DNA of 39,758 nt, taken from NCBI RefSeq assembly GCF_003261175.1, contig NZ_QLNP01000065.1, forward strand, positions 1 to 39,758, given 5' to 3'. Below the pieces are notes generated by a model that saw nothing but the letters and a program-made list of their open reading frames with translations, was not told where the DNA came from and did not search any database. The position numbers and the translations under genes were made by a program. Of this stretch, positions 20,528 through 39,758 are shown in pieces. Position 1 is the first letter of the stretch; each line of letters begins with the position of its first letter. This stretch comes from Arthrobacter globiformis (GTDB lineage: Bacteria > Actinomycetota > Actinomycetes > Actinomycetales > Micrococcaceae).

Positions 20528-21553
20528 CTAGTGCATTCCCGGCGCTGGACCCGTGGAGCCCCGGACCGTGAGGTGGGTGGGCATCACGGAGCGGCTGCGT
20601 GTAACGCCGCCCGCCACAGGGTTCAGCTGCGCCAGCAGCATGGAGACCGCCACGCGGCCCGCCTGCTCGATGGGCGATGCCATGGTTGAGAGCGGCGGGT
20701 TGCAGAAGTCGGCCCCGAAAATGTCGTCGCAGCCCACAATGCTCATGTCCTCCGGTACACGGATGCTGCGCTCGCGCAGGCGCTGGAGCATGCCGATGGC
20801 TATGAGGTCGTTGAACACGATGCAGGCCGTCACTCCGCTGTGCACGGCGGCGTCGGCGGCGACTGCGCCGGACTGTGTCTTGGGCGCGAACGGTCCGAGC
20901 GCGCGCACTTCCACCCCGCGCTCCTTCGCCGCCTCCGCCAGGGCAGTCCAGCGGCGGGTGCTGGACTGCGAGGTGAGCGGCCCGGCCATGTAGGCGATGT
21001 CGGTGTGGCCCAGCGAGATGAGATGGTCAAGGGCCTGGGTGGTGGCGGACGGGGTGTCGATGAGGACTGCGGGGACCCCGGGGACGTCGCGGTTGACCGT
21101 AACCATCGGCATCTTCGCTGCAGCGGCAAGCAGGGCCTCGTCGCTCAGCCGGGAGGCAGCCACCACGATTCCATCCGCGCTCTTGCGCAGCTGCTCCATG
21201 GTGCTGGCTTCGACTTCGTCGGACTCCTCCGTATCCACCAGCAGCTGCGTGTACCCGGCGGCCTTGAGCTGGAGCTGAGTACCCCGGATGAGGTCGAAGT
21301 AGAACGGGTTGGTGATGTCGGGTACCAGCACTCCCACGGCACCGGTCCGCCCGGAGCTCAGCGCTTTGGCCTGGCTGTTGGGGATGTAGTTTAGCTGCGC
21401 AGCGGCCGCCTCGATCCGTTGGCGCGTCCGGATATTGACGCGGTCCGGCGTGGAGAGCGCCCGGGAAACGGTGGAGGCCGCCACGCCGCAGAGGGCTGCG
21501 ATGTCGTGGATGGTGGGCGGGCGGTCCACTGCTGCTGCTTGCGTCGTAGCCAC
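20528..21553 (-). CDS. LacI-family transcriptional regulator (2)
   Basis: 341-residue LacI/GalR repressor. HTH residues are about 14-33 (TIHDIAALCGVAASTVSRAL), the hinge is near SQAKALSSGRT, and the sensor domain runs from GVLVPDITNPFYFDLIRG to CDDIFGADFCNPPLSTM. The GTG start at 21553 is preceded by AGAGGAG with 5 bases spacing; the ATG at 21682 would overlap the operator and is rejected. It is divergent from the TIM-barrel/Gfo pair, with operator 21666-21681 between them, so it probably represses both itself and that pair. It is closely similar in design to the LacI at 31282 and may share operators with it. Confidence 0.93.
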   Translation of the reverse strand: MATTQAAAVDRPPTIHDIAALCGVAASTVSRALSTPDRVNIRTRQRIEAAAAQLNYIPNSQAKALSSGRTGAVGVLVPDITNPFYFDLIRGTQLQLKAAGYTQLLVDTEESDEVEASTMEQLRKSADGIVVAASRLSDEALLAAAAKMPMVTVNRDVPGVPAVLIDTPSATTQALDHLISLGHTDIAYMAGPLTSQSSTRRWTALAEAAKERGVEVRALGPFAPKTQSGAVAADAAVHSGVTACIVFNDLIAIGMLQRLRERSIRVPEDMSIVGCDDIFGADFCNPPLSTMASPIEQAGRVAVSMLLAQLNPVAGGVTRSRSVMPTHLTVRGSTGPAPGMH

Positions 21554-21665
21554 GGCGCTCCTCTCTGAACGTGGTGGCCGGACCGTTCTGGCCAGATCCA
21601 ACGGGCTCTCCTGTGACTGCCGCCACAGAACCTGTCCGCCAAGAATGCCACAGCTGACAAGGTAT

Positions 21666-21681
21666 TGGCAACCGGTTGTCA
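21666..21681. promoter_or_regulatory. LacI-type operator, divergent promoter region
   Basis: TGGCAACCGGTTGTCA is a near-perfect palindrome centred on CCGG. It lies between the divergent LacI gene (start 21553) and TIM-barrel gene (start 21792). On the plus strand TTGTCA (21676-21681) could be a -35 with TAAGCT (21700-21705) 18 bases on; on the minus strand TTGCCA (21671-21666) could pair with CATTCT (21647-21642). An occupied operator would block both. Confidence 0.82.
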
Positions 21682-21791
21682 TTTCGCCGCAGTCGTAGCT
21701 AAGCTGGGGTGGACATCGTTTGTAAACTGCCTCACCGCACTGGAGCTGGAATGCGAGCTGCCCGCGCGGCGGCGAATTTCAGGAGATCCGC

Positions 21792-22640
21792 GTGAGCATA
21801 ACAACGACAGCAGTCTGGCCGCTCTCAGGCTTCGGCGATGAAATAGACCCGGACCCCGCGGTGCAGGCCGCGGTATTACTGGCGTTGGGCGCAAGCCACA
21901 TCGAGGTGCGCAGCGCGTGGGGGACCAACGTCTCGGAGCTGGAACCGCAGCAGGTTGCCGCACTCAAGCAAGTCCTCGATGAAAAGGGCCTGAAAGTCTC
22001 GGCCGTGGCCAGCCCCATCGGCAAGGTGGACGTGAGCCTGCCGGTGGAACACGAACTGGACCGGCTCGGCCAGATCATCTCCGTCGCCAAGGGCCTGGAC
22101 GCCAAATACGTCCGCATCTTCTCCTTCTTCCGGGCCGAAGGCCAGAGCGCGGAAGACATCCGCGACGACGTCATGGTGCGCATGGGCGCGCTGGCGGCCC
22201 TCGCCGCGGAAGCCGGCGTCGTGCTTCTGCATGAGAACGAAAAGGGTATCTACGGCGACACCCCAGAGCATGTCCTCGACATCATGGAGACCGTGGACTC
22301 CCCGGCGCTGCGGATCGCCTGGGACAACGCGAACTTCGTCCAGGTGGGCATCAAGCCCTACACCGAGGGCTACGCCATGCTGCGACCGTACCTCGAGTAC
22401 TTCCAGGTCAAGGACGCACTTGCCGCCACCGGGGAAGTGGTGCCCTCCGGCGAGGGCGACGGCGAACTGGACGCCACCATCGCCGCCCTGAAAGCGGACG
22501 GCTTCACCGGCTTCGCCTCACTGGAGCCCCACCTGGCCAGCGCCCACGAGCTCGGCGGCTTCTCTGGGCCGGCGGCCTTCGGTGTTGCAGCCCGCGCCTT
22601 CGGAGCGCTTGCGGCGAAAAACGGGGTTGAACTCTCTTGA
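21792..22640 (+). CDS. Sugar-phosphate isomerase/epimerase-type TIM barrel (3)
   Basis: 282-residue xylose-isomerase-like TIM barrel. Probable metal ligands are E148 (LLHENE), D178 (AWDNANF) and E245 (SLEPH); the usual strand histidine appears as YFQVKD (Q205), so one ligand seems replaced. That change occurs in some family lyases and epimerases and may alter chemistry. Its stop overlaps a TTG start of the next gene (TTGA), and the pair (TIM barrel plus Gfo/Idh/MocA) behaves as one unit behind operator 21666-21681. The reaction is unassigned; 3-keto-sugar elimination, hydration or epimerisation are the leading options by analogy. Confidence 0.88.
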   Translation: MSITTTAVWPLSGFGDEIDPDPAVQAAVLLALGASHIEVRSAWGTNVSELEPQQVAALKQVLDEKGLKVSAVASPIGKVDVSLPVEHELDRLGQIISVAKGLDAKYVRIFSFFRAEGQSAEDIRDDVMVRMGALAALAAEAGVVLLHENEKGIYGDTPEHVLDIMETVDSPALRIAWDNANFVQVGIKPYTEGYAMLRPYLEYFQVKDALAATGEVVPSGEGDGELDATIAALKADGFTGFASLEPHLASAHELGGFSGPAAFGVAARAFGALAAKNGVELS

Positions 22641-23647
22641 GGACGACGGTGGCTGTCATCGGCTGCGGCGACGTGTCCACCGTGCACTTCGAGGCGGTGG
22701 CAAAGCTCGACGGCGCCGCGCTCGTTGCGGTGTGCGAAGCGGACCCGCAGCGGCTGGCCTCCGCGATTGCCGCCTGGGGCGTCCCCGGCTACGCCGACCA
22801 CCTGGCCCTCATCGAGGCCGTTAAGCCTGACGTGGTGCACATTTGCACTCCGCATGACCAGCACGCGGCGGTGGCCGTCGACTGCCTGGAGCGCGGCGTC
22901 AACGTCATCGTGGAGAAGCCGCTGGCCCACACCCTTGCGGAAGGCCGGCGCATGGTCGAAGCTGCCTCGGCCGGCGGGGCCAAAATCGCCGTGTGCTTCC
23001 AGAACCGGTACAACGCGACGTCGCAGGCCATGCACGCTCTGCTGTCAACGGGCGAACTGGGGGCCGTTGTCGGAGCGTCGGCAACAGTGATGTGGCAGCG
23101 CTCCGCCGAGTACTACCAAAGCCGGCCGTGGCGCGGGACCTGGTCCGGCGGCGGGGGAGGCCTGCTGATGAACCAGGCCATCCATACCGTCGACCTGCTC
23201 CAATGGCTGGTGGGCGACGTCGTCGCGGTCACCGGAAACGCGTCCACCCGCTTCCTGGCCGAGGCCATAGAGGTTGAAGACACCGCGGAGTTCGTGGCAG
23301 AACATGCCGGCGGCGCCCGGAGCGCGTTCTATGCCACGCTGGCCAACGCCTTCAACGCCCCAGTGACACTCGACGTGGTCACCGAGAAGGCAGTCCTGAG
23401 CCTCCGGGGCGACCTCACAGTGACGCACTCCGACGGACGCGTGGACATCGTACCCGAGGGCACGGGCGCCTCCGGCGGCCGGTCCTACTGGGGCGTTTCC
23501 CACGAACTGCTGATCAAGGACTTCTACGCCCGCCTGGACGACGCCGATCCGTTTTGGATCAGCCCTGCCGAGGCCGAAAAATCGCTGCGCATCATCAAGG
23601 AGATCTACCGGCAAAGCTACCCGGAGTCCACCCACGCGGTCTCCTGA
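22637..23647 (+). CDS. Gfo/Idh/MocA-family dehydrogenase (3)
   Basis: 336-residue NAD(P)-dependent oxidoreductase: GCGDVST (9-15) for nucleotide, EKP at 93-95, and the active-site segment GGGGGLLMNQAIHTVDLLQW with H183 and D186. The TTG start overlaps the previous stop by 4 bases; GTG at 22649 is an alternative but would remove the first strand. The glycine-rich stretch before the histidine is typical of sugar and glycoside dehydrogenases in this family. It follows the TIM-barrel gene and precedes the ABC importer operon. Confidence 0.9.
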   Translation: MRTTVAVIGCGDVSTVHFEAVAKLDGAALVAVCEADPQRLASAIAAWGVPGYADHLALIEAVKPDVVHICTPHDQHAAVAVDCLERGVNVIVEKPLAHTLAEGRRMVEAASAGGAKIAVCFQNRYNATSQAMHALLSTGELGAVVGASATVMWQRSAEYYQSRPWRGTWSGGGGGLLMNQAIHTVDLLQWLVGDVVAVTGNASTRFLAEAIEVEDTAEFVAEHAGGARSAFYATLANAFNAPVTLDVVTEKAVLSLRGDLTVTHSDGRVDIVPEGTGASGGRSYWGVSHELLIKDFYARLDDADPFWISPAEAEKSLRIIKEIYRQSYPESTHAVS

Positions 23648-23734
23648 GCCTTGCATGGGGCAACCGCATATCGCGGTCCACTGGCCTGACCAGACAGCTG
23701 TCCAGTCGGCCATATGAAGTTGTTGCAGCTTTTT

Positions 23735-23773
23735 TGACAATCGGTTGCCAAGCACGGCAACAACCCGTACTCT
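23735..23773 (+). promoter_or_regulatory. Operator overlapping promoter of the ABC importer operon
   Basis: TGACAATCGGTTGCCA (23735-23750) matches the operator at 21666 read on the other strand, except at two positions. TTGCCA (23745-23750) is a plausible -35, and 17 bases later TACTCT (23768-23773) a plausible -10, so repressor binding would occlude RNA polymerase. Confidence 0.75.
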
Positions 23774-23784
23774 GGTGTGACCCA

Positions 23785-23851: not shown

Positions 23852-25375
23852 ATGAAGTTAGGTCCCAAGGCGGCAGCAGCCGCCCTTGTTCTCAGCGCAA
23901 CCCTCGCGCTGACCGGTTGCGGCGGTGCTGCCAACTCCGGTTCGGCTGCCGGCGCTGCCACGGCACTGACCCTCGGCACTGTCCAGGACGTACGTTCATG
24001 GGACCCGGCCCAGGCGCACGTCGGCCATGTTCTGCAGCCGTACCAGGCGGTGTATGACACGCTGATCCTGCGCGAACCGGACGGCAAACTCAGCCCGATG
24101 CTGGCCACGGCGTGGAAGTACAACGCCGGCAACACCAAGCTCACCCTGGACCTGCGCACGGACGTGACCTTCAGCGACGGCGCCAAGTTCGACGCAGAGG
24201 CCGCCAAGGCGAACATGGACCACTTCAAAAAAGCCAACGGTCCACAGATGGCACAGCTCGCTTCGGTCAGGGACGTGACTGTGGTGGACGCCGACACCAT
24301 CGACGTCAACCTCACTGCCCCGGACCCCGCGCTGGAATACTTTCTGAGCCAGGCCGCAGGCCTGATGGGCAGCCCCAAAGCCCTGGACAGCGAAGGCATC
24401 AAGACCGAACCGGTCGGCTCGGGCCCCTATGTCATGGACAAGGCGGCGTCGGTCAAGGACTCACAGACGGTTTTCAGTGCCCGCAAGGATTACTGGAACA
24501 AGGACCTGCAGAAGTACCAGAAACTGACGTTCAAGGTCCTGACCGACCTCACCGCCCGCACCAACGCGCTGGTCTCCGGGCAGGTAGACGCCACCATCCT
24601 GGACCCCAAGAACGGCAAGCAGGCCGAGGGCGCCAAGATGAAACTGGCCGCGAATGAAGTTGACTGGCAGGGGCTGCTCCTCCTGGACCGTGAAGGTGCC
24701 AAGAACCCGGCGCTAGCAAACGTCAAGGTCCGCCAGGCCATCAACTATGCCTTTGACCGCAAAACCATCCTGGACCAGGTCATGCTGGGTCAGGGCACCC
24801 CGACGTCGCAGCCGTTCGGCAAGGCCAGCGGCGCCTGGACGGAAGAACTGGAAAACTACTACACCTACGATCCGGCCAAGGCCAAGCAGCTTCTCAAGGA
24901 AGCAGGCTTTGAAAAGGGCGTCACCCTGGAGATTCCGAGCGTGCCCGGGTTCGAAACCCAGATTTCCGTCATCACGCAGCAGCTGGCGGACGTCGGTATC
25001 ACCCTGAAGGTCGGCGCGGCGCTGACCAACACGTACACGGCCGATATTGCCGCGCAGAAGTTCACCACCATTTTCTTCTCGCTCTTCCAGGGCCAGCCCA
25101 CGGTTGCCATGGACCAGATCGTCTCCACCAAGGCGCTCTACAACCCCTTCAAGAACTCGACGCCGGAGCTGGACGCCAAGATCGCGGCCGTGCGCAACGG
25201 CGGCGCCGATGCAGGCAAACTGGCGCAGGAAGTGAACAAGTACGTTGTTGAACAGGCGTGGTTCGCTCCGCTGTTCCGGGTCAACCAGATGTATTACCAC
25301 AACTCCAAGGTGAACGTGACTCCGCAGATCCAGCAGGCCGTTCCTTCCATCTACAACTACTCCCCGGCCAAGTAG
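23852..25375 (+). CDS. ABC importer solute-binding lipoprotein (SBP family 5)
   Basis: 507-residue extracytoplasmic binding protein of the peptide/nickel/oligosaccharide class. A signal peptide (basic MKLGPK then hydrophobic 8-20) ends in lipobox LTGC, with lipidated C23. The family core follows: DVRSWDPAQAHVGHVLQPYQAVYDTLI, DVTFSDGAKFDAEA, VGSGPYVMD, VRQAINYAFDR. AGGAG lies 7-11 bases before the ATG. Class 5 binding proteins take peptides, but also opines, cellobiose-type and plant oligosaccharides. Because this operon shares its operator with glucuronide genes, glycosides are a stronger guess than peptides here. Confidence 0.93.
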   Translation: MKLGPKAAAAALVLSATLALTGCGGAANSGSAAGAATALTLGTVQDVRSWDPAQAHVGHVLQPYQAVYDTLILREPDGKLSPMLATAWKYNAGNTKLTLDLRTDVTFSDGAKFDAEAAKANMDHFKKANGPQMAQLASVRDVTVVDADTIDVNLTAPDPALEYFLSQAAGLMGSPKALDSEGIKTEPVGSGPYVMDKAASVKDSQTVFSARKDYWNKDLQKYQKLTFKVLTDLTARTNALVSGQVDATILDPKNGKQAEGAKMKLAANEVDWQGLLLLDREGAKNPALANVKVRQAINYAFDRKTILDQVMLGQGTPTSQPFGKASGAWTEELENYYTYDPAKAKQLLKEAGFEKGVTLEIPSVPGFETQISVITQQLADVGITLKVGAALTNTYTADIAAQKFTTIFFSLFQGQPTVAMDQIVSTKALYNPFKNSTPELDAKIAAVRNGGADAGKLAQEVNKYVVEQAWFAPLFRVNQMYYHNSKVNVTPQIQQAVPSIYNYSPAK

Positions 25376-25381
25376 GACACC

Positions 25382-26323
25382 ATGATCAGGTTCATTGCGA
25401 AAAGGCTGGGCAGCGGGCTGGTGGTGCTGTTCGCTGTCTCGGCCCTCACGTTCTTCCTGCTGTACGTCTCCAGCGGGAGCATCGCCAGGAACATCCTTGG
25501 CGACCAGGCCACTGCGGAGCAGGTGGCGATGAAGGAACACGAGCTGGGGCTGGACCAGCCGCTGGTGGTCCGCTACTTCTCCTGGGTAGCCGACGCGCTG
25601 AGTGGAAACCTTGGTGCCTCGTGGTTCACGTCCGAGCCGGTGGCCAACTCGCTGGCCACCCGGATTCCGGTGACCATGACCATGGTCTTCGCCGCAATGA
25701 TCCTGATAGCAGCCTGTGCCGCTCTCATTGGTGTAGTCGCTGCCGTCAAGCGCGGCTGGGTGGACAGGGTGGTCCAGGTTGGCGCCATTGTCGGAGATTC
25801 CATCCCGGGGTTTGTGATCGGTGTCATCCTGGTCACCATCCTGGCCATCCAGCTGGGCCTCTTCCCGGCGACCAGCACCATCTCCCCTGAAGCCGGGCCC
25901 GAGGCGTGGGTCTATTCCATGTCCCTGCCGGTGATAGCCCTGCTGGTCAACGGCGTCACAGGCGGCGCGCAGCAGATCCGCAGCGCCGTTATCAAGCAGC
26001 TCGAGCGGGACTACGTCCGCACCCTGCGGAGCCGCGGCATCGGCGAGCGGGAGATCCTGTTCAGGCACGTGCTGCGCAGTGCCGCCCCGGCCGGCCTGAC
26101 GGTCCTCAGTCTGCAGCTGATCGGCATGCTTGGCGGTGTGGTCATCATCGAGCAAATCTTCGCTCTCCCGGGCATGGGTCCTCTGGCGGTCGCTGCCACC
26201 GGCCAGTCGGATCTTCCGGTGGTGATGGGCGTCGTGATGTACACGGTGGTTGTCGTCATCGTGGTGAACCTGCTGGTGGACATTCTCAATGGCTGGCTCA
26301 ACCCGAAGGTACGTGTGTCATGA
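25382..26323 (+). CDS. ABC importer permease, DppB type
   Basis: 313-residue inner-membrane permease, with the typical start MIRFIAKRLGSGLVVLFAVSALTFFLLY and about six membrane spans. The EAA-loop-like region RSRGIGEREILFRHVLRSAAP lies near residue 215, and QLIGMLGGVVIIEQIFALPGMG is the conserved segment after it. It starts 6 bases past the binding-protein stop and overlaps the DppC-DppD fusion by 4 bases. Confidence 0.94.
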   Translation: MIRFIAKRLGSGLVVLFAVSALTFFLLYVSSGSIARNILGDQATAEQVAMKEHELGLDQPLVVRYFSWVADALSGNLGASWFTSEPVANSLATRIPVTMTMVFAAMILIAACAALIGVVAAVKRGWVDRVVQVGAIVGDSIPGFVIGVILVTILAIQLGLFPATSTISPEAGPEAWVYSMSLPVIALLVNGVTGGAQQIRSAVIKQLERDYVRTLRSRGIGEREILFRHVLRSAAPAGLTVLSLQLIGMLGGVVIIEQIFALPGMGPLAVAATGQSDLPVVMGVVMYTVVVVIVVNLLVDILNGWLNPKVRVS

Positions 26324-28173
26324 GTGACTCTGTAGAAACCGCGGCAGTTGCCGCACCTGCGCCCTCCCTTCATACCGGGCAGAGCGGCACAGTGGTCCGC
26401 TCCACCGTGATCCGGCGCCTGCTCAGGAACCCGCTGGGCATCATTGCCATAACCCTTTTGCTGGCGATCTCGCTGCTGGCCGTCCTGGCTCCGGTCCTGG
26501 CGCCGTTCCAGGAGAATTATTCCAACATCGCCAAGACGCTGGCCGCCCCGGACTCGGTGAATATTTTGGGAACGGACAGCGCCGGGCGCGATGTCTGGAG
26601 CCGCCTGCTGTTCGGTGCGCAGCTGACGCTGCTTTCCGCCTTGCTGTGTGCCGGCGTCGCCATTGCCATCGGGCTGCCGGCAGGCCTGATCGCCGGCTAT
26701 TACGCCGGCAAGTTTGAGGCAGTTTCCAACTGGGTGGTCAGCATCCTCATGAGCCTGCCGGGCCTAATTGTGCTGCTGACGATCCGGGCGGCCTTCGGCC
26801 CCTCGGTATGGATTTCCATGATCGCGTTCGGCATCCTCATCAGCCCGTCCTATTTCCGGTTGACCCGCACCGCCGTCCAGTCTGTGCGCAACGAACTGTA
26901 CGTTGACGCTGCCAGGGTTTCCGGGCTTTCGGACCTGAGCATCATCGCCCGCCACATCTTCTCCGTGGTCCGGGCACCTATCATCATCCAGACGGCGGCC
27001 ATTGCAGGCGTAGCCATCGCCATCCAGTCCGGGCTGGAATTCCTGGGCCTGGGCGACCCCACCAAGGCAACCTGGGGCGTCATGCTCTCGGAGGGCTTCA
27101 AGAACGTCTACCTGAACCCGACCCTGCTCTTCTGGCCGGCACTCGCCATGGCGTTGACCATCGGTGGGCTGGTCCTGCTGGGCAACGCCATCCGCGACGC
27201 CCTGGAAGACGGCGAAAAGATCAAGCACCGCAAGAAGGTCGCACTCACAAAAGGCACGACGGCGGCACCCGCCAGGGCGGGCCAGCAGCGCAAGTCTGTA
27301 ACCGCCGTCGATCTTGGAACTGAGCACCACCTCGTGAAGGTGACTAACCTCGGCGTCGGGTACCCGCAGGCCGACGGCTCCGTCAAGAAGGTGGTGGACG
27401 ACGTTTCCTTCCACGTGGACCGCGGCGAGATTCTCGGCATCGTGGGCGAGTCCGGTTCAGGCAAGTCCCAGACGGCGTTCTCCATCCTGGGTTTGCTTCC
27501 GGATAACGCCCGCATTGTGGCCGGGTCCATTCAGTTCGACGGCAACTACACCGTCGCCCCAGGCGAGGACCGGGTCGATCAGGCACGGCTGTCCAGGCTT
27601 CGCGGCAAGAGGATCTCCTACATTCCGCAGGAACCCATGAGCAACCTGGACCCGGCTTTCACCATCGGCTACCAGCTCGTGACGCCGATGGTGCGCGTCC
27701 TCGGAATCCCCAAGGAAGAAGCCCGCAAGCGCGCGCTGAAACTCTTGGCCGACGTCGGAATCGCCAACCCTGAACGGACCTTCAGCGCCTACCCGCACGA
27801 GGTCTCCGGGGGCATGGCCCAGCGTGTGCTGATCGCCGGTGCCATCAGCTGCGAACCGGACCTGGTGATTGCCGATGAGCCCACCACGGCTCTGGACGTC
27901 ACCGTGCAGGCCGACGTGCTCGACCTCCTGCGCGAGCTCCAGCAGCGGCTGAACATCGGCGTCATCCTGGTGACCCACAACTTCGGCGTGGTGGCAGACC
28001 TCTGCGACCGCGTGGCCGTCATGCAGAACGGCCGCCTGGTCGAGGAAGGACCCGTCCGGGACATCCTCCGCAACCCCAAAGAGCAGTACACCCGGACCCT
28101 GCTGGCGTCCATGCTCGAAGGCAAAACCCCCATGTCCATGCTTGTATCCAGCCAGAAGGAGCCGGTCGCATGA
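26320..28173 (+). CDS. ABC importer DppC permease fused to DppD ATPase
   Basis: 617-residue single polypeptide. Residues 1-300 are a DppC-type permease (RNPLGIIAITLLLAISLLAVLAPVLAPF, then NILGTDSAGRDVWSRLLFGAQ, and EAA loop VDAARVSGLSDLSIIARHI). Residues 330-617 are a DppD-type ATPase with Walker A GESGSGKS near 376-383, Q-loop YIPQEPMSNLDP, signature VSGGMAQRV near 495, and Walker B LVIADEPTTALDVT. A basic linker (KHRKKVALTKGTTAAPARAG) joins them. Such fusions are known in actinobacteria. There is no frameshift; the fusion frame is continuous. It fixes one permease half to one ATPase half of a heterodimer. Confidence 0.94.
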   Translation: MSDSVETAAVAAPAPSLHTGQSGTVVRSTVIRRLLRNPLGIIAITLLLAISLLAVLAPVLAPFQENYSNIAKTLAAPDSVNILGTDSAGRDVWSRLLFGAQLTLLSALLCAGVAIAIGLPAGLIAGYYAGKFEAVSNWVVSILMSLPGLIVLLTIRAAFGPSVWISMIAFGILISPSYFRLTRTAVQSVRNELYVDAARVSGLSDLSIIARHIFSVVRAPIIIQTAAIAGVAIAIQSGLEFLGLGDPTKATWGVMLSEGFKNVYLNPTLLFWPALAMALTIGGLVLLGNAIRDALEDGEKIKHRKKVALTKGTTAAPARAGQQRKSVTAVDLGTEHHLVKVTNLGVGYPQADGSVKKVVDDVSFHVDRGEILGIVGESGSGKSQTAFSILGLLPDNARIVAGSIQFDGNYTVAPGEDRVDQARLSRLRGKRISYIPQEPMSNLDPAFTIGYQLVTPMVRVLGIPKEEARKRALKLLADVGIANPERTFSAYPHEVSGGMAQRVLIAGAISCEPDLVIADEPTTALDVTVQADVLDLLRELQQRLNIGVILVTHNFGVVADLCDRVAVMQNGRLVEEGPVRDILRNPKEQYTRTLLASMLEGKTPMSMLVSSQKEPVA

Positions 28174-31157: not shown

Positions 31158-31173
31158 CGGCAACCGCTGGCCA
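31158..31173. promoter_or_regulatory. Degenerate operator upstream of LacI (3)
   Basis: CGGCAACCGCTGGCCA matches the beta-glucuronidase operator TGGCAACCGCTTGCCA at 14 of 16 positions. It lies 109 bases upstream of the LacI start, so autoregulation is plausible. Confidence 0.55.
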
Positions 31174-31190
31174 CCCGTGAGGCAACTCCT

Positions 31191-31258: not shown

Positions 31259-31281
31259 GGGTTCCTCGTTAGGATGGGGCG

Positions 31282-32343
31282 GTGACTGAACCCAAGAAGC
31301 CGGACGCGCCCGCAGCAACGGGCCGGGCCAATAAGCACGCCCGGGACGGGAAATCCAACCCCACCATCTATGACATTGCCAAGGTTGCCGGCGTGAACCC
31401 TTCGACCGTGTCACGGGCCCTCAGCAAACCCGGCAGAGTCAGCGCCAAGACCCAGAAGCTCATTGAGGATGCCGCCGCCGAGCTCAACTACCAGGTCAAC
31501 CCCTTCGCGCGGGCCCTGCCCACCGGGCGGACCAACACCTTCGGGCTGATCGTCGCGGATATCACCAACCCCACCTTCTTCGACATCATCCGCGGGGCCG
31601 AGACCACGGCCACGCTGCGGGACTACACACTCGTGCTGGCCGAGTCCGCTGAGTCAGCCGTCACCGAGCTCACGGCAGCCCGCCGGCTTATGGCCACCGT
31701 GGACGGCCTGATCCTCGCAAGCCCCCGCACGGACGACGACAACATCCGCGCACTTGCCCGCGACAAACCGGTGGTGGTCATCAACCGCGAGGTCGAGGGC
31801 GTGCCCTGCGTGGTTCCGGACGTAAACAAGGGCATCGGCGAGGCTGTGCGCAGCCTCGCCGCCAACGGGCACACAAAGGTTGCCTTTGTTGCCGGGCCGC
31901 CGCAGTCCTGGATGTCCGCCCGCCGCTGGGAAGGCGTCCGGGCAGCCTGCGAATGGTCACGGCTGGAGGCTGTGAGGCTGGATTCCACCAAACCCACGGT
32001 CGACGGCGGCAGGCAGGTGGCGCGCGACGTCCGGGCCAGCGGCGTCACGGCCGTGCTGACCTACAACGATCTCCTGGCCATTGGACTCATGCAGGAACTC
32101 CAGGCCGCGGGCATTGTGGTGCCGGACCAGATCAGCATCGTGGGTTTCGACGACATCTTCGGCGCTGACTTCACCACTCCGCCGCTGACCACCGTGCGCT
32201 CCCCGCTGGGGGAGTGCGGCTCGGGCGCGGCCACCCTGTTGCTTGACCTCCTGCACGGCATGGGGGAACCCGCAGGCACCCTGCGCGTGGAAACGGAGCT
32301 GGTGCTGCGCGGCTCAAGCGGCCGGTTGCTGCCCGCAGGCTAG
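31282..32343 (+). CDS. LacI-family transcriptional regulator (3)
   Basis: 353-residue LacI/GalR repressor with an N-terminal disordered basic stretch (1-26), HTH at about 28-48 (TIYDIAKVAGVNPSTVSRALS), hinge near ARALPTGRT, and sensor domain from GLIVADITNPTFFDIIRG to VGFDDIFGADFTTPPLTTV. The GTG start follows AGGATGGGG with good spacing. The hinge leucine is kept but a proline follows it (LPTG), unlike the usual LRTG. It is immediately upstream of the glucuronate genes and is the best candidate for the glucuronide repressor. Confidence 0.93.
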   Translation: MTEPKKPDAPAATGRANKHARDGKSNPTIYDIAKVAGVNPSTVSRALSKPGRVSAKTQKLIEDAAAELNYQVNPFARALPTGRTNTFGLIVADITNPTFFDIIRGAETTATLRDYTLVLAESAESAVTELTAARRLMATVDGLILASPRTDDDNIRALARDKPVVVINREVEGVPCVVPDVNKGIGEAVRSLAANGHTKVAFVAGPPQSWMSARRWEGVRAACEWSRLEAVRLDSTKPTVDGGRQVARDVRASGVTAVLTYNDLLAIGLMQELQAAGIVVPDQISIVGFDDIFGADFTTPPLTTVRSPLGECGSGAATLLLDLLHGMGEPAGTLRVETELVLRGSSGRLLPAG

Positions 32344-32355: not shown

Positions 32356-32398
32356 TGGCAACCCCCCTGCTTTGGCAATAAATGGCAACCGGTTGACA
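32356..32398 (+). promoter_or_regulatory. Operator region of the glucuronate isomerase operon
   Basis: TGGCAACCGGTTGACA (32383-32398) is a full palindromic operator ending 30 bases before the ATG of uxaC. Two extra half-sites TGGCAA lie at 32356 and 32373. The distal half TTGACA (32393-32398) could itself be a -35 element, but no good -10 is seen at 16-18 bases. Confidence 0.78.
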
Positions 32399-32428: not shown

Positions 32429-33835
32429 ATGTCACAGTCGATTGCCGCCAACCCAGACCGGCTCCTGCCCGCTGATCCCGGAACGCGCAGCATTGCGCGT
32501 GACCTCCTGCAGCGCGCCCAGGACCTCCCCATCATTTCCCCGCACGGGCACGTTGACGCCGCAGTCATCGAGCACAACAGCCCCTTCCCGGACCCGGCAG
32601 CGCTGCTGGTCAGTCCGGACCACTACGTCACCCGGCTGATCCACGCCAGCGGCGTTCCGCTGGACCGGCTGAAGGGCGCGGCAACCGGGAAACCGGACTC
32701 CCGCGCCGTCTGGCACGAGTTCTGCAAGGCCTGGCCGCAGTTCGAAGGCACTGCCTCCGGCTACTGGCTGCGCACCCAGTTTGACAGCGTCTTCGGCCTC
32801 CAGCAGGGGATCAGCGCGGAGACCGCCGACGCCAGCTACGATGCGATTTCCGCCAGGCTGCGGGAACCCGGCTTCCGACCGCGCGAGCTCTTCAAGGACT
32901 TCAACATCGAGGTGCTGGCCACCACTGACGACCCCCTGGACAGCCTCGCCAGCCACAAGGCCATCGCCCAGGATCCCACGTTCCACGGCCGCGTCCTGCC
33001 CACCTTCCGCCCGGACGCCTACCTGAATATCGCCCACCCGGAATGGCAGGCGAACGTGGACCGCCTCATAGCGGCAGCGGGCGAGGGCGGCACAGGCTAC
33101 GCCGGCTATCTCACCGCCCTGCAAAACCGGCGTCGTTATTTCGTGGAACACGGCGCAGTCTCCGCTGACCACGGCGTCCGCACTCCCGCAACGCTCAAGC
33201 TGGACGACGGTGCGGCGGCGAAACTCTTCGACCGTGCCCGCGCCGGCCGGGCCACGGCGCAGGACCGCGACGACTTCGAAGCCCACATGATGTACCAGAT
33301 GGCCCGGATGTCCGTTGAGGACGGCCTGGTCATGACCATCCACCCCGGCTCCTACCGCAACCACCATGAACCAACGTTCAACGCGTACGGTGCCGACACG
33401 GGCCATGACATCCCGTTCGCCGTCAACTACACCGAGGCCATCCGCCCGCTGCTGCAGGACTTCGGCACCGCCAAGGACTTCCACCTGGTGCTCTTCACGC
33501 TGGACGAGACCGTGTTCTCCCGTGAACTCGCGCCCCTTGCGGGCTTCTACCCGTCCGTGTTCCTCGGAGCCCCGTGGTGGTTCCTTGATGCGCCGGACGC
33601 CATGCTGCGCTTTCGTTCGGCCGTCACCGAGACCGCCGGGTTCTCCCGCTCGTCCGGGTTCATCGATGACACGCGTGCGTTCTGCTCCATCCCTGCGCGC
33701 CATGATGCCTCCCGCCGGATCGAGGCCTCCTTCCTGGCCAGGCTTGTGGCGGAACACCGGGTCAGCGAGGAACGCGCCCACGAACTGATCGTCGACATCG
33801 TCGACGGCTCGCCCAGAAGGGTCTTCAAGCTGTGA
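32429..33835 (+). CDS. uxaC: Glucuronate isomerase
   Basis: 468-residue uronate isomerase that converts D-glucuronate to D-fructuronate (and galacturonate to tagaturonate). It is an amidohydrolase-fold TIM barrel; the N-terminal PHGHVD gives the HxH metal motif, and EVLATTDDPLDSL, HPGSYRNHHEP, FPVNYTEAIRPLL-type segments and DDTRAFCSIPARHD near the C-terminus follow the family pattern. Length agrees with the usual 465-475. The stop overlaps the GTG start of the fructuronate reductase gene by 4 bases. Confidence 0.94.
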   Translation: MSQSIAANPDRLLPADPGTRSIARDLLQRAQDLPIISPHGHVDAAVIEHNSPFPDPAALLVSPDHYVTRLIHASGVPLDRLKGAATGKPDSRAVWHEFCKAWPQFEGTASGYWLRTQFDSVFGLQQGISAETADASYDAISARLREPGFRPRELFKDFNIEVLATTDDPLDSLASHKAIAQDPTFHGRVLPTFRPDAYLNIAHPEWQANVDRLIAAAGEGGTGYAGYLTALQNRRRYFVEHGAVSADHGVRTPATLKLDDGAAAKLFDRARAGRATAQDRDDFEAHMMYQMARMSVEDGLVMTIHPGSYRNHHEPTFNAYGADTGHDIPFAVNYTEAIRPLLQDFGTAKDFHLVLFTLDETVFSRELAPLAGFYPSVFLGAPWWFLDAPDAMLRFRSAVTETAGFSRSSGFIDDTRAFCSIPARHDASRRIEASFLARLVAEHRVSEERAHELIVDIVDGSPRRVFKL

Positions 33836-35271
33836 GCACCGAACTGCAATCCGCCGAAGGGGAAGCATCCGCCGTAGACCTTCCGCAGCTGGGCCGCAGC
33901 CTGCGGCCTGTCGCGAAGGCGCCGGTCCGCATCGTCCACCTGGGGCTGGGTGCCTTCCACCGCTCACACCAGGCCTGGTACACGTACCAGGCCGGCGACG
34001 CCGCGGACTGGGGCATCGCCGCCTTCACCGGCCGCCGCCCCGACGCGGCGCTGGCCCTGGCGGAGCAGGACGGCCTGTACACCGTGGTGGAACGTGCCGA
34101 AGGCGGCGACTCGTTTACCGTAGTCAGCAGCATTGTTGAAGCGGTAGACGGCGCCGACATGCAGCGTCTGGCGGAACTGATAGCGGCCCCCGCCACCGCG
34201 GTGGTCACCCTCACCATCACCGAGGCGGCATACCGGCTCGGCGCCGACGGGCAACTCGACCGCACTGCGGCCGACATCGTGGCGGACCTGGCGCTGCTGA
34301 AGTCCGGCAACGGAACCCCGTCCACGCCGCTGGGCAGGCTGGTGCTGGCCCTCGCCGCCCGCCGGACTGCCGGTTCTGGCCCGCTCGCCGTGGTCTGCTG
34401 CGACAACCTCTCCAACAACGGCACCGTGGCGCGCAACGCCCTGGTGGGCATGGCCGGGGCGTGGGACGAAGGCGTGGCCGGATGGATCGACGCCACCGTC
34501 AGCTTCGTCAGCACCTCCGTTGACCGCATCACTCCGCGGACCACGGAGGCGGACCTTGCTGCCGTGGAAGCCGGCTGCGGCTACCGCGACAATTCCCCCG
34601 TGGTGGCCGAACCCTTCACCAACTGGGTGCTCAGCGGGGACTTCCCGGCGGGCCGGCCGCGCTGGGAAGACGCGGGTGCCGTTTTCGTAGACGACATCGA
34701 ACCGTATGAGAACCGCAAGCTGTGGCTCCTCAACGGCGCCCACTCCTTGCTGGCCTACGCTGGCCAGCTTCGGGGACACTCCACGGTGGCCCAGGCCCTG
34801 GCCGACCCGGTGTGCCTGGGGGCTGTTGAAGCGTTCTGGGACGAAGCCGAGGCAAACCTGTCCGGCTTGGAGGGCGCTGCCGCTGACCTGCAGATCCCGG
34901 CGTACCGGGCTGCGCTGTTGACACGCTTCAGCAACGCCCGGATTGCGCACCATCTTGCGCAGATCGCAATGGACGGCAGCACCAAGCTGCGGATGCGGGC
35001 TGTTCCGGTGCTGCGGGCCGAGCGTGCCGCGGGACGGTCAGGAGCCGCCGCTGCGCTCATGATTGCCGCCTGGATGGACTTCAGCGCTGCCGCAGCCACA
35101 GTCCACGATCCGCTGGCCGAAGAAATCGCTGCCGCGAACCGGCTGGGCGGTTCCGAGCGGATCCGGGCGCTGCTGGACCTGGTGGATCCGGCCCTGGCAG
35201 GGGGCACGGCCGTCGTGCACCTGATTGAAGGCCTGCGCGGAACGTTCGCGGAGCCGGCTGTCTCCCCATAA
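33832..35271 (+). CDS. uxuB: Fructuronate reductase (mannitol dehydrogenase family)
   Basis: 479-residue NAD(P)-dependent polyol dehydrogenase: Rossmann start RIVHLGLGAFHRSHQAWYT and the family's catalytic triad K296, N301, H304 in KLWLLNGAHSLLAY. It reduces D-fructuronate to D-mannonate in the second step of glucuronate breakdown. Altronate or mannitol dehydrogenase are sister functions, but the position right after uxaC and before a mannonate dehydratase supports UxuB. Start GTG at 33832 overlaps uxaC. Confidence 0.9.
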   Translation: MSTELQSAEGEASAVDLPQLGRSLRPVAKAPVRIVHLGLGAFHRSHQAWYTYQAGDAADWGIAAFTGRRPDAALALAEQDGLYTVVERAEGGDSFTVVSSIVEAVDGADMQRLAELIAAPATAVVTLTITEAAYRLGADGQLDRTAADIVADLALLKSGNGTPSTPLGRLVLALAARRTAGSGPLAVVCCDNLSNNGTVARNALVGMAGAWDEGVAGWIDATVSFVSTSVDRITPRTTEADLAAVEAGCGYRDNSPVVAEPFTNWVLSGDFPAGRPRWEDAGAVFVDDIEPYENRKLWLLNGAHSLLAYAGQLRGHSTVAQALADPVCLGAVEAFWDEAEANLSGLEGAAADLQIPAYRAALLTRFSNARIAHHLAQIAMDGSTKLRMRAVPVLRAERAAGRSGAAAALMIAAWMDFSAAAATVHDPLAEEIAAANRLGGSERIRALLDLVDPALAGGTAVVHLIEGLRGTFAEPAVSP

Positions 35272-35352: not shown

Positions 35353-35392
35353 TTGGCAACCGCTTGCCAAACGATTGCCAAGTGACTAGGAT
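35353..35392 (+). promoter_or_regulatory. Overlapping operators and promoter of the beta-glucuronidase operon
   Basis: TTGGCAACCGCTTGCCAA (35353-35370) is an almost perfect palindrome, overlapped by a second, weaker site TGCCAAACGATTGCCA (35365-35380), offset by 11 bases. A -35 TTGCCA (35364-35369) lies within both, 17 bases before -10 TAGGAT (35387-35392). A small stem CCGGC-GCACT-GCCGG (35411-35425) sits near the predicted 5' end of the transcript. Confidence 0.82.
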
Positions 35393-35480: not shown

Positions 35481-37304
35481 ATGCTCAAGCCCCAGGCCAG
35501 CGAAACCCGCGAGTTGGTCAACCTCGACGGCATCTACCGCTTCAAGGTGGACTTCGACCGTGCGGGCCACCGCCAGGAATGGTTCAAGACGGCGCTGGAG
35601 ACCGACCTCGAAATGGGTGTCCCGGCCAGCTACAACGATGTCTTCCCGGACAAGGCAATCCGCAACCACGTGGGCTACGTCTGGTACCAGCGTGAGGTGC
35701 GCGTGCCGCGCGGCTGGGCAGGGGAGCGGATCCATGTGCGCCTGGACTCCGCCACCCACGAGGGCATGGTCTGGGTCAACGACGTGCTGGTGGCCGAGCA
35801 CACCGGCGGGTACATGCCGTTCAGTGCCGACATCACCGAGCACGTCACCCCTGGCCAGGTTTTCCGGCTGACCATCTCCGTGAACAATGAGCTAACCCAG
35901 GCCACCATTCCGCCGGGCAGCATCACCGTCACAGAGGACGGGCGCCGCCAGCAGAGCTACCTCCACGATTTTTATAACTATGCCGGACTGCACCGCAGCC
36001 TCTGGCTTTACAGCACCCCTTCCGTCGCCGTGGATGACGTCACGGTGGTGACCGGCTTCGAAGGCACCACCGGCACGGTCGGCTACGCGATCGCCACCGC
36101 CGGAGGCACCGGAAACGAAACCGTCAGGGTTCTCCTGCGCGATGCGGACGGCGCTGAAGTCGCCGCAGCAGAAGGCGCCGAGGGCGCCCTGGTAATTGAC
36201 GGCGTCGTGCTCTGGAAACCCGGTGCGGCCTACCTGTACAGCCTCACCGCTGAGATCCACGACGGCGGCCGGCTGGTGGACGCATACACCCTCCCCGTGG
36301 GAGTCCGGACAGTCGAGGTCAGCGGCAAGGAATTCCTCATCAATGGCGAACCCTTCTACTTCACCGGCTTCGGCATGCACGAGGACCACGTGGCTATCGG
36401 TAAGGGCCACAGCAACGCCCAGATGGTCAACGACTTCCAGCTCCTGGACTGGGTGGGCGCCAACTCCTTCCGCACCTCGCACTACCCCTACGCCGAAGAA
36501 GTCATGGAGTTTGCCGACCGGCACGGCATCCTGGTGATCGACGAAACTGCGGCCGTCGGGCTGCACCTCGGCTTCGGTGCCGTGTTCGGTGGCATCGCCA
36601 AGCCGACGTACGTCGACGGCGGGGTGGACGCCAACACCGCGGCGAACCACCGCCAGGCCATCAGGGAGCTCGTGGCCCGCGACAAGAACCATCCCTCGGT
36701 CGTGATCTGGTCGATCGCCAACGAACCCAACGGCTCCGAGGAAGGCGCCCGGGAATACTTCCAGCCCCTGGCCGAACTCACCCGGCAGCTGGACCCAACC
36801 CGTCCCGTGGGCTACGTCAACGTCATGTTCGATACCCCGGACAAGGAACTGCTGGGCGACCTTTTCGACGTCATCATGCTCAACCGCTACTACGGCTGGT
36901 ACCTGAACAACGGGGACCTGGAAACAGCGGAGCAGGTCCTGGAAAAGGAACTGCGCGAATGGGAAGCCAAGTACGGCAAACCCATGATCATGACCGAGTA
37001 CGGGCCGGACACCATGCCGGGCTTCCACTCCATCTATGAGCAGCCCTGGAGCGAGGAATACCAGGCCGCGTTCCTGGCCATGTACCACCGGGTCTTTGAC
37101 CGCGTGGATGCCATGGTGGGTGAGCAGGTCTGGAACTTCGCGGATTTCCAGACGTCCAACGGCATCATGCGCGTGGACGGCAACAAGAAGGGTGTGTTCA
37201 CGCGGGACCGCCGGCCCAAGCCAGCAGCGTATGCCCTCCGCCAGCGCTGGACCGCACTGGCCGGTGTCAAAAACGGCAGCGACAAGTCGATCACCAACCG
37301 GTAG
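35481..37304 (+). CDS. uidA: Beta-glucuronidase (GH2)
   Basis: 607-residue cytoplasmic glycoside hydrolase, no signal peptide, closely resembling E. coli GUS (603 aa) along its length. Domains are sugar-binding jelly roll (1-180), immunoglobulin-like (180-275) and TIM barrel. The acid/base is E415 in IANEPN and the nucleophile E506 in MTEYGPDTMPG, at offsets of two from the E. coli residues. The asparagine-lysine pair that grips the glucuronate carboxylate is present (N568 and K570 in GNKKGVF), so the enzyme should be a true glucuronidase rather than a galactosidase. It releases glucuronate that uxaC then uses. The loop after AAVGLHLGFGAVFGG is short, as in enzymes acting on small glucuronides. 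Confidence 0.96.
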   Translation: MLKPQASETRELVNLDGIYRFKVDFDRAGHRQEWFKTALETDLEMGVPASYNDVFPDKAIRNHVGYVWYQREVRVPRGWAGERIHVRLDSATHEGMVWVNDVLVAEHTGGYMPFSADITEHVTPGQVFRLTISVNNELTQATIPPGSITVTEDGRRQQSYLHDFYNYAGLHRSLWLYSTPSVAVDDVTVVTGFEGTTGTVGYAIATAGGTGNETVRVLLRDADGAEVAAAEGAEGALVIDGVVLWKPGAAYLYSLTAEIHDGGRLVDAYTLPVGVRTVEVSGKEFLINGEPFYFTGFGMHEDHVAIGKGHSNAQMVNDFQLLDWVGANSFRTSHYPYAEEVMEFADRHGILVIDETAAVGLHLGFGAVFGGIAKPTYVDGGVDANTAANHRQAIRELVARDKNHPSVVIWSIANEPNGSEEGAREYFQPLAELTRQLDPTRPVGYVNVMFDTPDKELLGDLFDVIMLNRYYGWYLNNGDLETAEQVLEKELREWEAKYGKPMIMTEYGPDTMPGFHSIYEQPWSEEYQAAFLAMYHRVFDRVDAMVGEQVWNFADFQTSNGIMRVDGNKKGVFTRDRRPKPAAYALRQRWTALAGVKNGSDKSITNR

Positions 37305-37363
37305 CATTTTTCACTATTTTTGGCTGCCCCCTGGGCAGACACTTGGGTAAAGGAGCCCACCTC

Positions 37364-38806
37364 ATGAAAAAGCTGAACAAGCTCAGCATCATCGGCTACG
37401 GCGCCGGCGATGCCGCCAACAACCTGGCCTTCACCACCGCCACCATGTTCCTGCTGGTCTACTACACCGACGTTGCGGGTATTTCAGCGGCAGCCGCAGG
37501 CACACTCCTGCTGGTCGTGAGGATCTTCGATGCGTTCGCCGATGTCCTTGCCGGCCGCATGGTGGACCGAAACTACAGCAAGCGCTTCGGGAAGTTCCGT
37601 CCGTTCATCATGTTCGGCTCCATCCCGCTGCTGCTCCTGAGCGTGGCAACCTTCTCCGTCCCGCAGCTGGGCGAGTCCGGAACCCTGCTGTACGCCTACG
37701 TCACCTACGCAGCCCTCGGCCTGGCCTACAGCCTGGTCAACATCCCCTACGGCTCACTCGCAGGCGCCATGACCCAGGATCCGGGCGACCGGGCCAAACT
37801 GGGATCTGCCCGTATGGTGGGCGGTCTGCTGGTCGGTTCCGCGCTCGGCATCTTCGTGGCACCCCTCATCAAGCCGGGCGCCGACCTGCAGGCAACCTTC
37901 ACCACCATCACCCTGGTGTTCGTCGGCATCGGCACGGTCCTGTACTTCTTCACCGTCCTCACCGCCAAGGAACGCGTCCACCGCGCCGTACCGAACGTTT
38001 CCCTCAAACAGAGCATGGAAACCCTGAAGGGCAACAAGCCCCTCCTGATGCTGTGCATCAGCTCGTTCCTCTTCCTCTCCGGCTACCTGGCACTGACCTC
38101 CGTGCAGCTGTACTACCTGCGGGACGTCCTCGGCCGCCTGGATCTGTACCCGGTGCTGTCCATCATCCAGCTTGTCCTCACCTTCGTCCTGGCCGCGTTT
38201 ATGCCCAAGTTGGTCCGCAACATCGGCAAGAAGCACGTCTACATTTACTCCTCCCTGATCACTGTCGCCGGCGGTGTGGTTATCTTCTTCACGCCGGCTA
38301 GCCAGGTCATGATCGGCTTTGCCGGCCTCGTGCTCAGCCTCGTGGGTGTCCTCGCGATGAGCATCGTGGTGTGGGCCCTCGAGGCCGACACCGTGGAATA
38401 CGGCGAATGGAAGACCGGCGTCCGCACCGAAGGCATCACCTACGCGCTGTTCTCCTTCACACGCAAGACCGGCCAGGCCGTGGGCGGAGCCCTCGCCGCG
38501 TACGCACTCGCATGGGGCGGTTACAAGTCCGGCGGGGTCGTCCAGACCCCGGACGCGGTATTCGGCATTCAGGTCGCAGCCGGTGCACTGCCCGCCGTAC
38601 TGACAATCCTCGCGGTATTGGTCATGAGCAGGTACACGCTGACCGATGCCAAGCACGCCGAGATCCTCGCAGAGATCCGGGCCCGCCGCGAAAGCGGCGA
38701 TGCCCCTAAAAAGGCCGATGCCGCCGTTGAGCCCTCCAAAGACGACACAGACGGCACCACCGAAACAGCCACCTCCCACCAGCCGCACGCGGCGCCAACC
38801 AACTGA
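37364..38806 (+). CDS. uidB: Glucuronide:cation symporter (GPH family)
   Basis: 480-residue membrane transporter with about 12 spans, similar to E. coli UidB (GusB): starts [23 protein letters not shown], includes [17 protein letters not shown] and the central [13 protein letters not shown], and [22 protein letters not shown] near the C-terminus. The last 45 residues are hydrophilic and rich in E, K, T and S. AAAGGAG lies 8-14 bases before ATG 37364. It imports intact glucuronides for the cytoplasmic beta-glucuronidase encoded before it. Confidence 0.92.
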
Positions 38807-38838
38807 CCCCTGAACCAGTCCATCCGAAAGGACCTGTT

Positions 38839-39758
38839 GTGAAAATTATTGCCGCGGAAGTCTTCGTGACAAGCCCCTCCCGTAACTTCGTGACGCTGCG
38901 GATCACCACCGAGGACGGTGTGACCGGCATCGGTGACGCCACCCTGAACGGGCGTGAGCTTGCCGTTGCTGCCTATTTGAAGGAGCACGTCGCGCAGCTG
39001 CTGATCGGGAAGGACCCGCACCGGATCGAGGACACCTGGCAGTTCCTGTACCGGTCCTCGTACTGGCGCCGGGGCCCGGTGACGATGGCCGCGATCGCCG
39101 CGGTGGACATGGCGTTGTGGGACATCAAGGGCAAGCTGGCCGGCATGCCGGTGTACCAGCTGCTCGGCGGGGCGTCCCGGAACGGGCTGCGGGCGTACGG
39201 GCACGCGTCCGGTTCGGACATCCCCTCGCTGTTTGACTCGGTCCGGGAGCACCTGGAGCTCGGGTACAAGTCGGTGCGGATCCAGACCGCGGTGCCCGGG
39301 ATCAAGGCCGTGTACGGGGTGGCCGCGCAGGCCCAGGCGTCGGGGGAGCGGTACGACTACGAACCGGCCGGGCGCGGTGCGTTCCCGGTGGAGGAGGACT
39401 GGGACACCCGGGCCTACCTGCGCCACCTGCCGTCGGTGTTCGAGGCGGTCCGGAACGAGTTCGGACCGGAACTGCCTTTGCTGCATGACGGGCACCACCG
39501 GATGACGCCGATCCAGGCCGCGAAGCTGGGCAAGGCCCTGGAGCCGTATGACCTGTTCTGGCTGGAGGACTGCACCCCGGCGGAGAACCAGGAGGCGCTG
39601 CGCCTGGTCCGCCAGCACACCACCACCCCGCTGGCCATCGGTGAAATCTTCAACACCGTGTACGACTACCAGACCATCATCAAGGAACAGCTGATCGACT
39701 ACGTCCGGGCAGCCTCCACGCACTTCGGCGGGATCAGCCCTTTGAAGAAGGTCATGGA
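38839..39758 (+). CDS. manD: D-mannonate dehydratase, ManD type (3' end outside window)
   Basis: 306 of about 400 residues of an enolase-superfamily dehydratase that turns D-mannonate into 2-keto-3-deoxygluconate. The residues match the ManD family in place: N37, H122 (YGHASG), Y159, metal ligands D217 (LLHDGHHR), E243 (WLEDCTP) and E269 (IGEIF), plus H219 and H295 (STHFGG). This is distinct from the UxuA-type mannonate dehydratase. The GTG start has AAAGGA 8-13 bases upstream. It belongs to the uidA-uidB unit and closes the glucuronate-to-KDG route. Confidence 0.93.

Follow-up and report, generated by a model that had tools for sequence, protein, structure and literature searches.

The question raised by this locus is what a family-5 ATP-binding cassette (ABC) importer, a member of the peptide/nickel class, is doing among genes for the breakdown of glucuronides. 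The locus lies in Arthrobacter globiformis (NCBI RefSeq assembly GCF_003261175.1, 4.88 Mb in 88 contigs), in the second half of an entire contig of 39,758 nucleotides (NZ_QLNP01000065.1, our C33), which is called the window below and to which all coordinates refer. The original prediction held that one operator code joins uidA, uidB, uxaC, uxuB and manD, which lead from glucuronides to 2-keto-3-deoxygluconate (KDG), to this importer and to two pairs of triose-phosphate isomerase (TIM) barrel and Gfo/Idh/MocA-type genes. On the evidence of sequence comparison, we are fairly confident that the locus is a glucuronide regulon under LacI-family control, which would comprise the importer, two cleavage routes and the uronate pathway.

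The window contained six matches to the motif TGGCAACCGGTTGCCA at up to three mismatches, where 0.38 were expected, and none of 100 shuffled sequences reached six. The matches at 21666, 32383 and 35354 deviated from the motif at one position and that at 23735 at two, and those at 35365 and 31158 had three mismatches each. All sites proposed earlier were found to exist, with one of them starting at 35354 instead of 35353. In the whole genome, 24 places were found at up to three mismatches versus 33 for the reversed control; as there was no enrichment at this level, three-mismatch sites carry little weight on sequence grounds alone. At up to two mismatches only five places were found, four of them in this locus (21666, 23735, 32383 and 35354), and the fifth (C79:96008) sat within a 442-aa open reading frame (ORF) given by a simple ORF caller. 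A random spread over the genome was thus excluded for close matches. The degenerate pattern TGRCAAYCGVTTGHCA, composed from the conserved sites, occurred at four places in the genome, every one in the window, and at one place with the reversed control. These results demonstrated that the motif is real and locus-specific. Because the genome search with TGRCAAYCGVTTGHCA returned nothing beyond the locus, membership of a KDG kinase and an aldolase gene was left without support; six matches to 2-keto-3-deoxy-6-phosphogluconate (KDPG) aldolase were present in the genome.

Conservation was examined in a survey of 61 genomes of the genus, of which 25, this one included, encoded an orthologue of the importer's solute-binding protein (SBP) at 60% identity or more. 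One locus of 3.6 kb at a contig end (L070) was excluded from every locus count, which gave 24 readable importer loci. Genes were counted across loci by tblastn, the simple ORF caller having misplaced some of them. For the operator footprints, L081 and L085-L091 were excluded, leaving 23 loci with the window included; for the operator before uidA/uidB, L075 and L077, which have neither gene, were also excluded, leaving 21. Operator 1 (21666..21681, TGGCAACCGGTTGTCA), common to the gene of one repressor (LacI-A) and the TIM1-GFO1 pair, read TGGCAA[CT]CGGTTGTCA in 23/23 loci. Operator 2 (23735..23750, TGACAATCGGTTGCCA) precedes the importer operon and was found as TGACAA[TC]CGGTTGCCA, exact or with one change, in 23/23 loci (in L068 the alignment uses a neighbouring match). 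Operator 4 (35354..35369, TGGCAACCGCTTGCCA) precedes uidA/uidB and was present as TGGCAACCGCTTGCCA in 18/21 loci. Every promoter retained its own version of the operator, as exemplified by operator 3 (32383..32398, TGGCAACCGGTTGACA) before uxaC, which was identical in all 23 loci. The operator columns were 97-100% conserved at all four positions (23, 23, 23 and 21 loci before TIM1, SBP, UxaC and UidA/UidB, respectively), and the central CG was unvarying across the 90 sites. The mean conservation of the left flanks was 51-62%, and that of the right flanks was 54% at operator 1, 62% at operator 3, 73% at operator 2 and 87% at operator 4. A palindrome with a central CG at or near a promoter is what is expected of a LacI-family operator. 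The conserved operators before TIM1, SBP, UxaC and UidA/UidB speak for the earlier claim that the importer and both TIM/Gfo modules belong to the glucuronide programme. That the sites lie outside coding regions holds if LacI-A starts at GTG 21553; the longest ORF, from ATG 21682, covers the site at 21666.

A promoter box seems to be present in the well-conserved right flanks of operators 2 and 4. A TANNNT element was found 3' of the operator right half in 23/23 loci for operator 1, 22/23 for operator 2 and 21/21 for operator 4. In these 66 of 67 cases the spacing was 17 bp in 56 and 18 bp in 10 (at operator 4, 17 bp in 20/21 and 18 bp in 1/21), compared with 7% for shuffled flanks. The right half of the operator would overlap the expected position of the -35 box at three of the four promoters. 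In the genus, 50 genomes had a uxaC orthologue at 70% identity or more, and 41 of them carried the TGRCAAYCGVTTGHCA pattern, which was found in none of the 11 other genomes (Fisher p = 4e-7); pattern places in G043 and G054 fell outside the reading. A wider scan was made by a GFO2-anchored search of named genomes. Of its 568 relatives the best 80, with many from Arthrobacter, were taken and split into 37 loci with an SBP at 40% identity or more and 43 without an SBP; the closest named locus by GFO2 was that of Arthrobacter ipis (98%). The motif, at up to two mismatches and within 420 bp upstream, preceded SBP in 33/37 and UxaC in 33/35 of the importer loci, including loci of Microterricola, Okibacterium, Cryobacterium and Rhodococcus hoagii whose SBP and UxaC were 47-77% identical to those of the window. 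It was present in none of nine Firmicutes loci. A tenth locus (L221), from a record titled Sporosarcina beigongshangi, was set aside from these; it holds an Arthrobacter-type locus with operators, which reflects contamination or recent transfer.

Each of five transcription units had been assigned an operator, and four of these assignments are supported. The fifth, for the LacI-B unit, rested on a weak match at 31158..31173 and was rejected: of the 23 loci, counting the window, just six had a three-mismatch match in the gap before LacI-B. Its distance varied among these six, two of which are close relatives of the window, and the other 17 loci had at least five mismatches. None of 2000 shuffled LacI-B gaps reached three mismatches, so a weak site may exist there in some strains. 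For the match at 35365, a further conserved half-site, TTGCCA (35375-35380, 11 bp downstream in operator 4), is a better reading than an operator. Another conserved half-site, TGGCAA, was located about one helical turn upstream of operator 3 (window 32374-32398). The extra half-sites beside operators 3 and 4 could seat a second repressor dimer.

The importer is encoded on the forward strand, as are all genes of the glucuronide locus except that of LacI-A. It consists of a family-5 solute-binding lipoprotein-like protein (SBP, 23852..25375, PF00496) with the proposed cargo of glucuronides, a DppB/OppB-like permease (25382..26323, PF00528/PF19300), a 617-aa fusion of an OppC-like permease with an ATPase in a single ORF (26320..28173, PF12911 + PF00528 + PF00005) and a second, OppF-like ATPase (28170..29054, PF00005). 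In most relatives, too, one tblastn match spans the permease-ATPase pair. The pathway genes are uxaC (glucuronate isomerase, 32429..33835), a uxuB-like gene (fructuronate reductase, 33832..35271), uidA (beta-glucuronidase, 35481..37304), uidB (glucuronide symporter, 37364..38806) and manD (mannonate dehydratase, 38839..39758). UxaC (PRK02925, 569.8 bits, cut-off 387), UidA (PRK10150, 880.6 bits, cut-off 544) and UidB (PRK09848, 640.4 bits, cut-off 528) exceeded the curated cut-offs. UxuB fell short (PRK15037, 261 bits, cut-off 603), with this family as the best of 12. ManD, cut by the contig end to 306 of about 409 aa, scored 521.4 bits on the fragment against a cut-off of 550 (NF043051); the start of contig C37 is identical to the window end over 827 bases and continues to the end of the manD frame. 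A glycoside hydrolase family 3 (GH3) gene follows manD there (L274, contig C37, 1127-3412) and likewise in four relatives scanned (L155, L156, L162 and L168).

Within the genus, uxaC and uxuB were found in 24/24 readable importer loci, and uidA in 12/24. In the wider scan, UxaC and UxuB were each encoded in 35/37 loci with the SBP versus 22/43 and 23/43, respectively, without it. Paralogous family-5 importers of 42-45% identity had neither a uronate gene nor the motif in 7/7 loci, two of which overlap. Because much of the gene set recurred in relatives, the cargo of the importer is probably glucuronides; the original prediction had named glucuronides or larger glycosides, not peptides. The class-wide SBP search (394 genomes, E-value limit 1e-90, 21 rows) gave beyond G000 and G002 just 36-43% matches, whose loci of about 4.5 kb cover the SBP and the permease and are uninformative on linkage.

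The most serious alternative is that the importer takes up a cargo other than a simple glucuronide, such as uronic-acid oligosaccharides or mixed-sugar glycosides, with UidB taking the simple glucuronides; we consider it a substantial, if less probable, explanation. It would be in line with the presence of UidB in 22/37 importer loci of the wider scan, as judged from the DNA examined, and with the GH3 gene after manD in this genome and the four relatives; the substrate of its product might point to the partner sugar. It would also accord with a second family-5 importer lineage (SBP 31-34%), found about 7-12 kb from uidA in L160 (G045) and L163 (G049), which in G045 lies among GH2, GH1 and hydrolase genes; the nearness of this lineage to uidA also speaks for the glucuronide regulon itself. 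In G060 and G033 (L075/L181 and L077/L182), however, the stretch from LacI-A to manD yielded no uidA and no uidB, which makes the importer the sole transporter of the locus there, and GFO2 is nearest to a glucuronide dehydrogenase.

The place of the importer was also informative in eight genus genomes with a single site, of which three loci (L165-L167) were examined and the domains were scanned in L166. In these three the site had a LacI-A-like gene (63-69%) on one side and, on the other, a row of three ORFs with TIM1-like and Gfo genes behind them. In L166 (G006) the three ORFs at the importer position were a family-1 SBP and two permeases under the same motif. The downstream genes were uxaC, uxuB and manD in G003, and uxuB and manD in G006, with uxaC at a distance of 6.3 kb from the site. 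Another family-1 SBP gene had a site in both G058 and G013 (L169 and L171). As family-1 importers stand under the same motif and family-5 paralogues are unlinked, different transporters seem to occupy the importer position, while the uronate core stays the same.

Two LacI-family proteins are encoded in the locus. LacI-A (20528..21553, reverse strand, 341 aa from the chosen start GTG 21553) is divergent from TIM1, and LacI-B (31282..32343) lies upstream of uxaC. Both have a LacI helix-turn-helix domain (PF00356) and a periplasmic-binding-like sensor domain (Peripla_BP_3, PF13377), and they are 42% identical to each other. The recognition helix reads V[AT][APT]STVSRAL in LacI-A-type proteins (13 listed) and V[NS]PSTVSRAL in all 18 LacI-B-type proteins listed. 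Eight genus genomes had a LacI-A-type protein and the motif without LacI-B (best match 41-43%); in the three that were read, the best match to LacI-B was the LacI-A-like gene itself. Conversely, eight records from other genera, of unstated completeness, had LacI-B without LacI-A (best match 43-46%); in L238 the best match to LacI-A was LacI-B itself. Operator 3 was exact in seven of these eight records and had one change in the eighth (L242). Since each lineage occurs beside the operator without the other, LacI-A and LacI-B probably both read one operator code. It is rather unlikely that one of them alone reads the operator and the other acts through a different site. The lack of a conserved operator of this kind before LacI-B would fit such a division, but both single-lineage sets kept the motif, and both recognition helices end in STVSRAL.

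The TIM-barrel and Gfo proteins look like a second, non-hydrolytic means of glucuronide cleavage, a proposal absent from the original prediction. GFO2 (29969..31135, proposed glucuronide-3-dehydrogenase) matched PDB 8TDI, named 'P2B11 Glucuronide-3-dehydrogenase' by its depositor, at E=1e-151 and 508 bits over residues 3-387, with 237 of 383 aligned residues identical (62%), which is a full-length relationship and supports the assignment of the TIM/Gfo modules to the glucuronide programme. GFO1 (22637..23647, PF01408/PF22725, proposed 3-keto-glucuronate reductase) matched PDB 3q2i best (E=1.3e-43), with 3q2k also near and 8tdi third (3.3e-31); we take 3q2i and 3q2k to be dehydrogenases that act on a UDP-sugar acid at C3. 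TIM1 (21792..22640, PF01261, a xylose-isomerase-like TIM barrel and proposed lyase or hydratase) had distant PDB matches only, and its HENEK, D178, KD and EPH were unvarying in 22 aligned sequences. TIM2 (29083..29952, PF01261, proposed hydratase or lyase) was a distant relative of PDB 8bvk, 8tct, 8tcs and 8tcd. The levoglucosan dehydrogenase profile LgdA (NF052479, cut-off 650) gave 83.7 bits for GFO1 and 53.7 bits for GFO2, well short of assignment.

All four enzymes were encoded together in 23/24 genus importer loci. The remaining one, L081, had the importer, uxaC, uxuB, manD and uidA, and none of the four within 20 kb. All four were present in each of the 12 loci without uidA, so at least one cleavage route was encoded in each of the 24 readable loci. 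In four of five genus loci without the importer (L156-L159), TIM1-GFO1-TIM2-GFO2 stood in a single row that led into LacI-B and uxaC-uxuB, and operators 1 and 3 were retained. Among the 22 uxaC loci of the wider scan without the importer, which include L206, a contig piece retaining an importer ATPase, 10 had the same row and 6 had all four genes rearranged. Because of this unbroken row, the importer looks like an optional insertion that splits one module, which is not always complete. As the four enzymes are kept with or without the importer or uidA and GFO2 resembles 8TDI, a route of oxidation, elimination, hydration and reduction probably operates beside or instead of UidA.

A different reading of the same genes is that TIM1-GFO1 and TIM2-GFO2 are independent polyol (inositol-like) modules, co-regulated and standing outside glucuronide cleavage. 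Both Gfo proteins had IolG as their best NCBIfam match, the window holds two separate pairs, and one or both TIM barrels were missing in L155, L219 and L236. This reading is nevertheless improbable: the IolG scores (96 and 103 bits) were far under the cut-off of 355 and the match of GFO2 to 8TDI reached 508 bits, the four genes formed one row in loci without the importer, and GFO2, GFO1 and TIM2 were retained in eight of the nine Firmicutes loci. Least probable is a true peptide or nickel importer merely under the same repressor: family-5 SBP, Opp/Nik-like permease and ATPase profiles and nickel-, dipeptide- and peptide-binding proteins among the nearest PDB chains of the SBP fit it, but the SBP scored far under the equivalog cut-offs of DppA (75.3/1005 bits), NikA (130.6/393 bits) and GsiB (121.2/594 bits), uxaC and uxuB adjoined the importer throughout the genus loci, the 42-45% paralogues lacked such linkage, and in G006 a family-1 sugar importer occupied the corresponding place under the same motif.

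The glucuronide regulon would then work as follows. LacI-A and LacI-B would bind one 16-bp palindrome, TGRCAAYCGVTTGHCA, and would shut the promoters until an inducer from glucuronide breakdown appears. The family-5 importer would take up glucuronides or larger glucuronosides, with UidB as a putative second entry route. In the first cleavage route, hydrolysis by UidA would release glucuronate. In the second, as homology and gene context suggest, GFO2 would oxidise C3 of the glucuronide, one TIM barrel would eliminate the aglycone, the other would hydrate the enone (either assignment of TIM1 and TIM2 being admissible), and GFO1 would reduce the 3-keto-glucuronate. Glucuronate from both would be converted to KDG by UxaC, UxuB and ManD. 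The chances are about even for the further proposal that this peptide-class importer feeds intact glucuronides to two interchangeable routes, and that two LacI paralogues on one operator integrate two inducers.

Several observations weigh against the proposed regulon. UidB alone could import glucuronides, and the name of 8TDI is its depositor's label. Nine genus genomes with uxaC had no exact match to the pattern, and no TANNNT was found 14-20 bp from operator 3 (0/23 loci). In the wider scan the motif was missing before SBP in L197, L227, L249 and L256 and before UxaC in L237 and L249. In L081 no motif was found within 420 bp upstream of SBP, UxaC or UidA; its sole motif precedes its LacI, the first gene of the row. 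A match in G058 lay beside Nramp-like and DapD-like genes (L170), and one in G013 lay between ORFs near genes for NAD synthase and enoyl-CoA hydratase (L188). The enzyme set was also incomplete in places: the 16 kb of L155 (G051) encoded GFO1 and GFO2 and lacked both TIM1 and TIM2. Of the 22 importer-less loci, 6 were short of at least one of the four enzymes, some of these loci lying on short contig pieces. L155, itself without the importer, keeps LacI-B, uxaC, uxuB, manD and both operators besides its two Gfo genes.

The redox-elimination chemistry is known elsewhere, and it is the regulon assembly that is new. The locus resembles the uid operon and hexuronate pathway of Escherichia coli, since UidA, UidB and UxaC meet the NCBIfam cut-offs; here ManD stands in for UxuA, and LacI-family control for that of TetR/GntR type. 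A redox-elimination pathway for glycans was reportedly described by Nasseri and colleagues (Nature, 2024), in work believed to cover 8TDI, and 8TDI, 8tcd, 8tcs and 8tct presumably come from that one study. GFO2, as noted, is 62% identical to 8TDI and TIM2 is a weak relative of the other three; the difference is that the putative route here belongs to a LacI-controlled gene set from Actinomycetota that also encodes an importer and a uronate pathway. The four-enzyme scheme was biochemically shown in the levoglucosan pathway, LgdA-LgdB1-LgdB2-LgdC. Like this locus, that pathway pairs two oxidoreductases with two sugar-isomerase-like proteins, and it proceeds by oxidation, elimination, hydration and reduction (PMC7676230). 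Here, in contrast, the Gfo proteins scored under the LgdA cut-off and the proposed product is glucuronate, not glucose. A related enzyme set in Agrobacterium cleaves a flavonoid O-glucoside (PMC10628242). LacI-family regulons for sugar acids are treated in the main text of a further paper as the ExuR, KdgR, UxaR and UxuR groups (PMC4052901). They share with this locus a LacI-family repressor, a palindromic operator and hexuronate catabolic genes; here, in contrast, two paralogous repressors appear to share the operator, and the regulon extends to a family-5 importer and a Gfo/TIM module. The strings 'Arthrobacter' and 'Micrococc' were absent from that main text, the supplements lying outside the search. 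In the open-paper literature, this regulon assembly was not found in print, nor was a family-5 SBP tied to a glucuronide or a LacI operator tied to glucuronate in Arthrobacter.

The regulon, if correctly read, suggests a cargo that can be tested for a family-5 importer which would be classed by profile matches as a peptide or nickel importer, and it would make redox-elimination cleavage part of a soil bacterial catabolic programme that is both complete and regulated. It would also be a natural case of two paralogous repressors probably sharing one operator, and the conserved operator may serve as a cheap handle on further glucuronide genes in Actinomycetota.

Two further features of the window were observed. 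In a second cluster (window 5414-15515), from which the shared motif was absent, a LacI regulator, two Gfo-type proteins, two TIM barrels, two short-chain dehydrogenase/reductase (SDR) dehydrogenases, a KDPG-type aldolase, a small AAA_33 protein and a major facilitator superfamily (MFS) transporter were encoded. The gap between GFO2 and LacI-B holds a hairpin at 31188-31261 with 35-nt arms that are 80% complementary (-46.3 kcal/mol, z -9.1); it belongs to a palindromic intergenic repeat that occupies about 18 distinct places in the genome.

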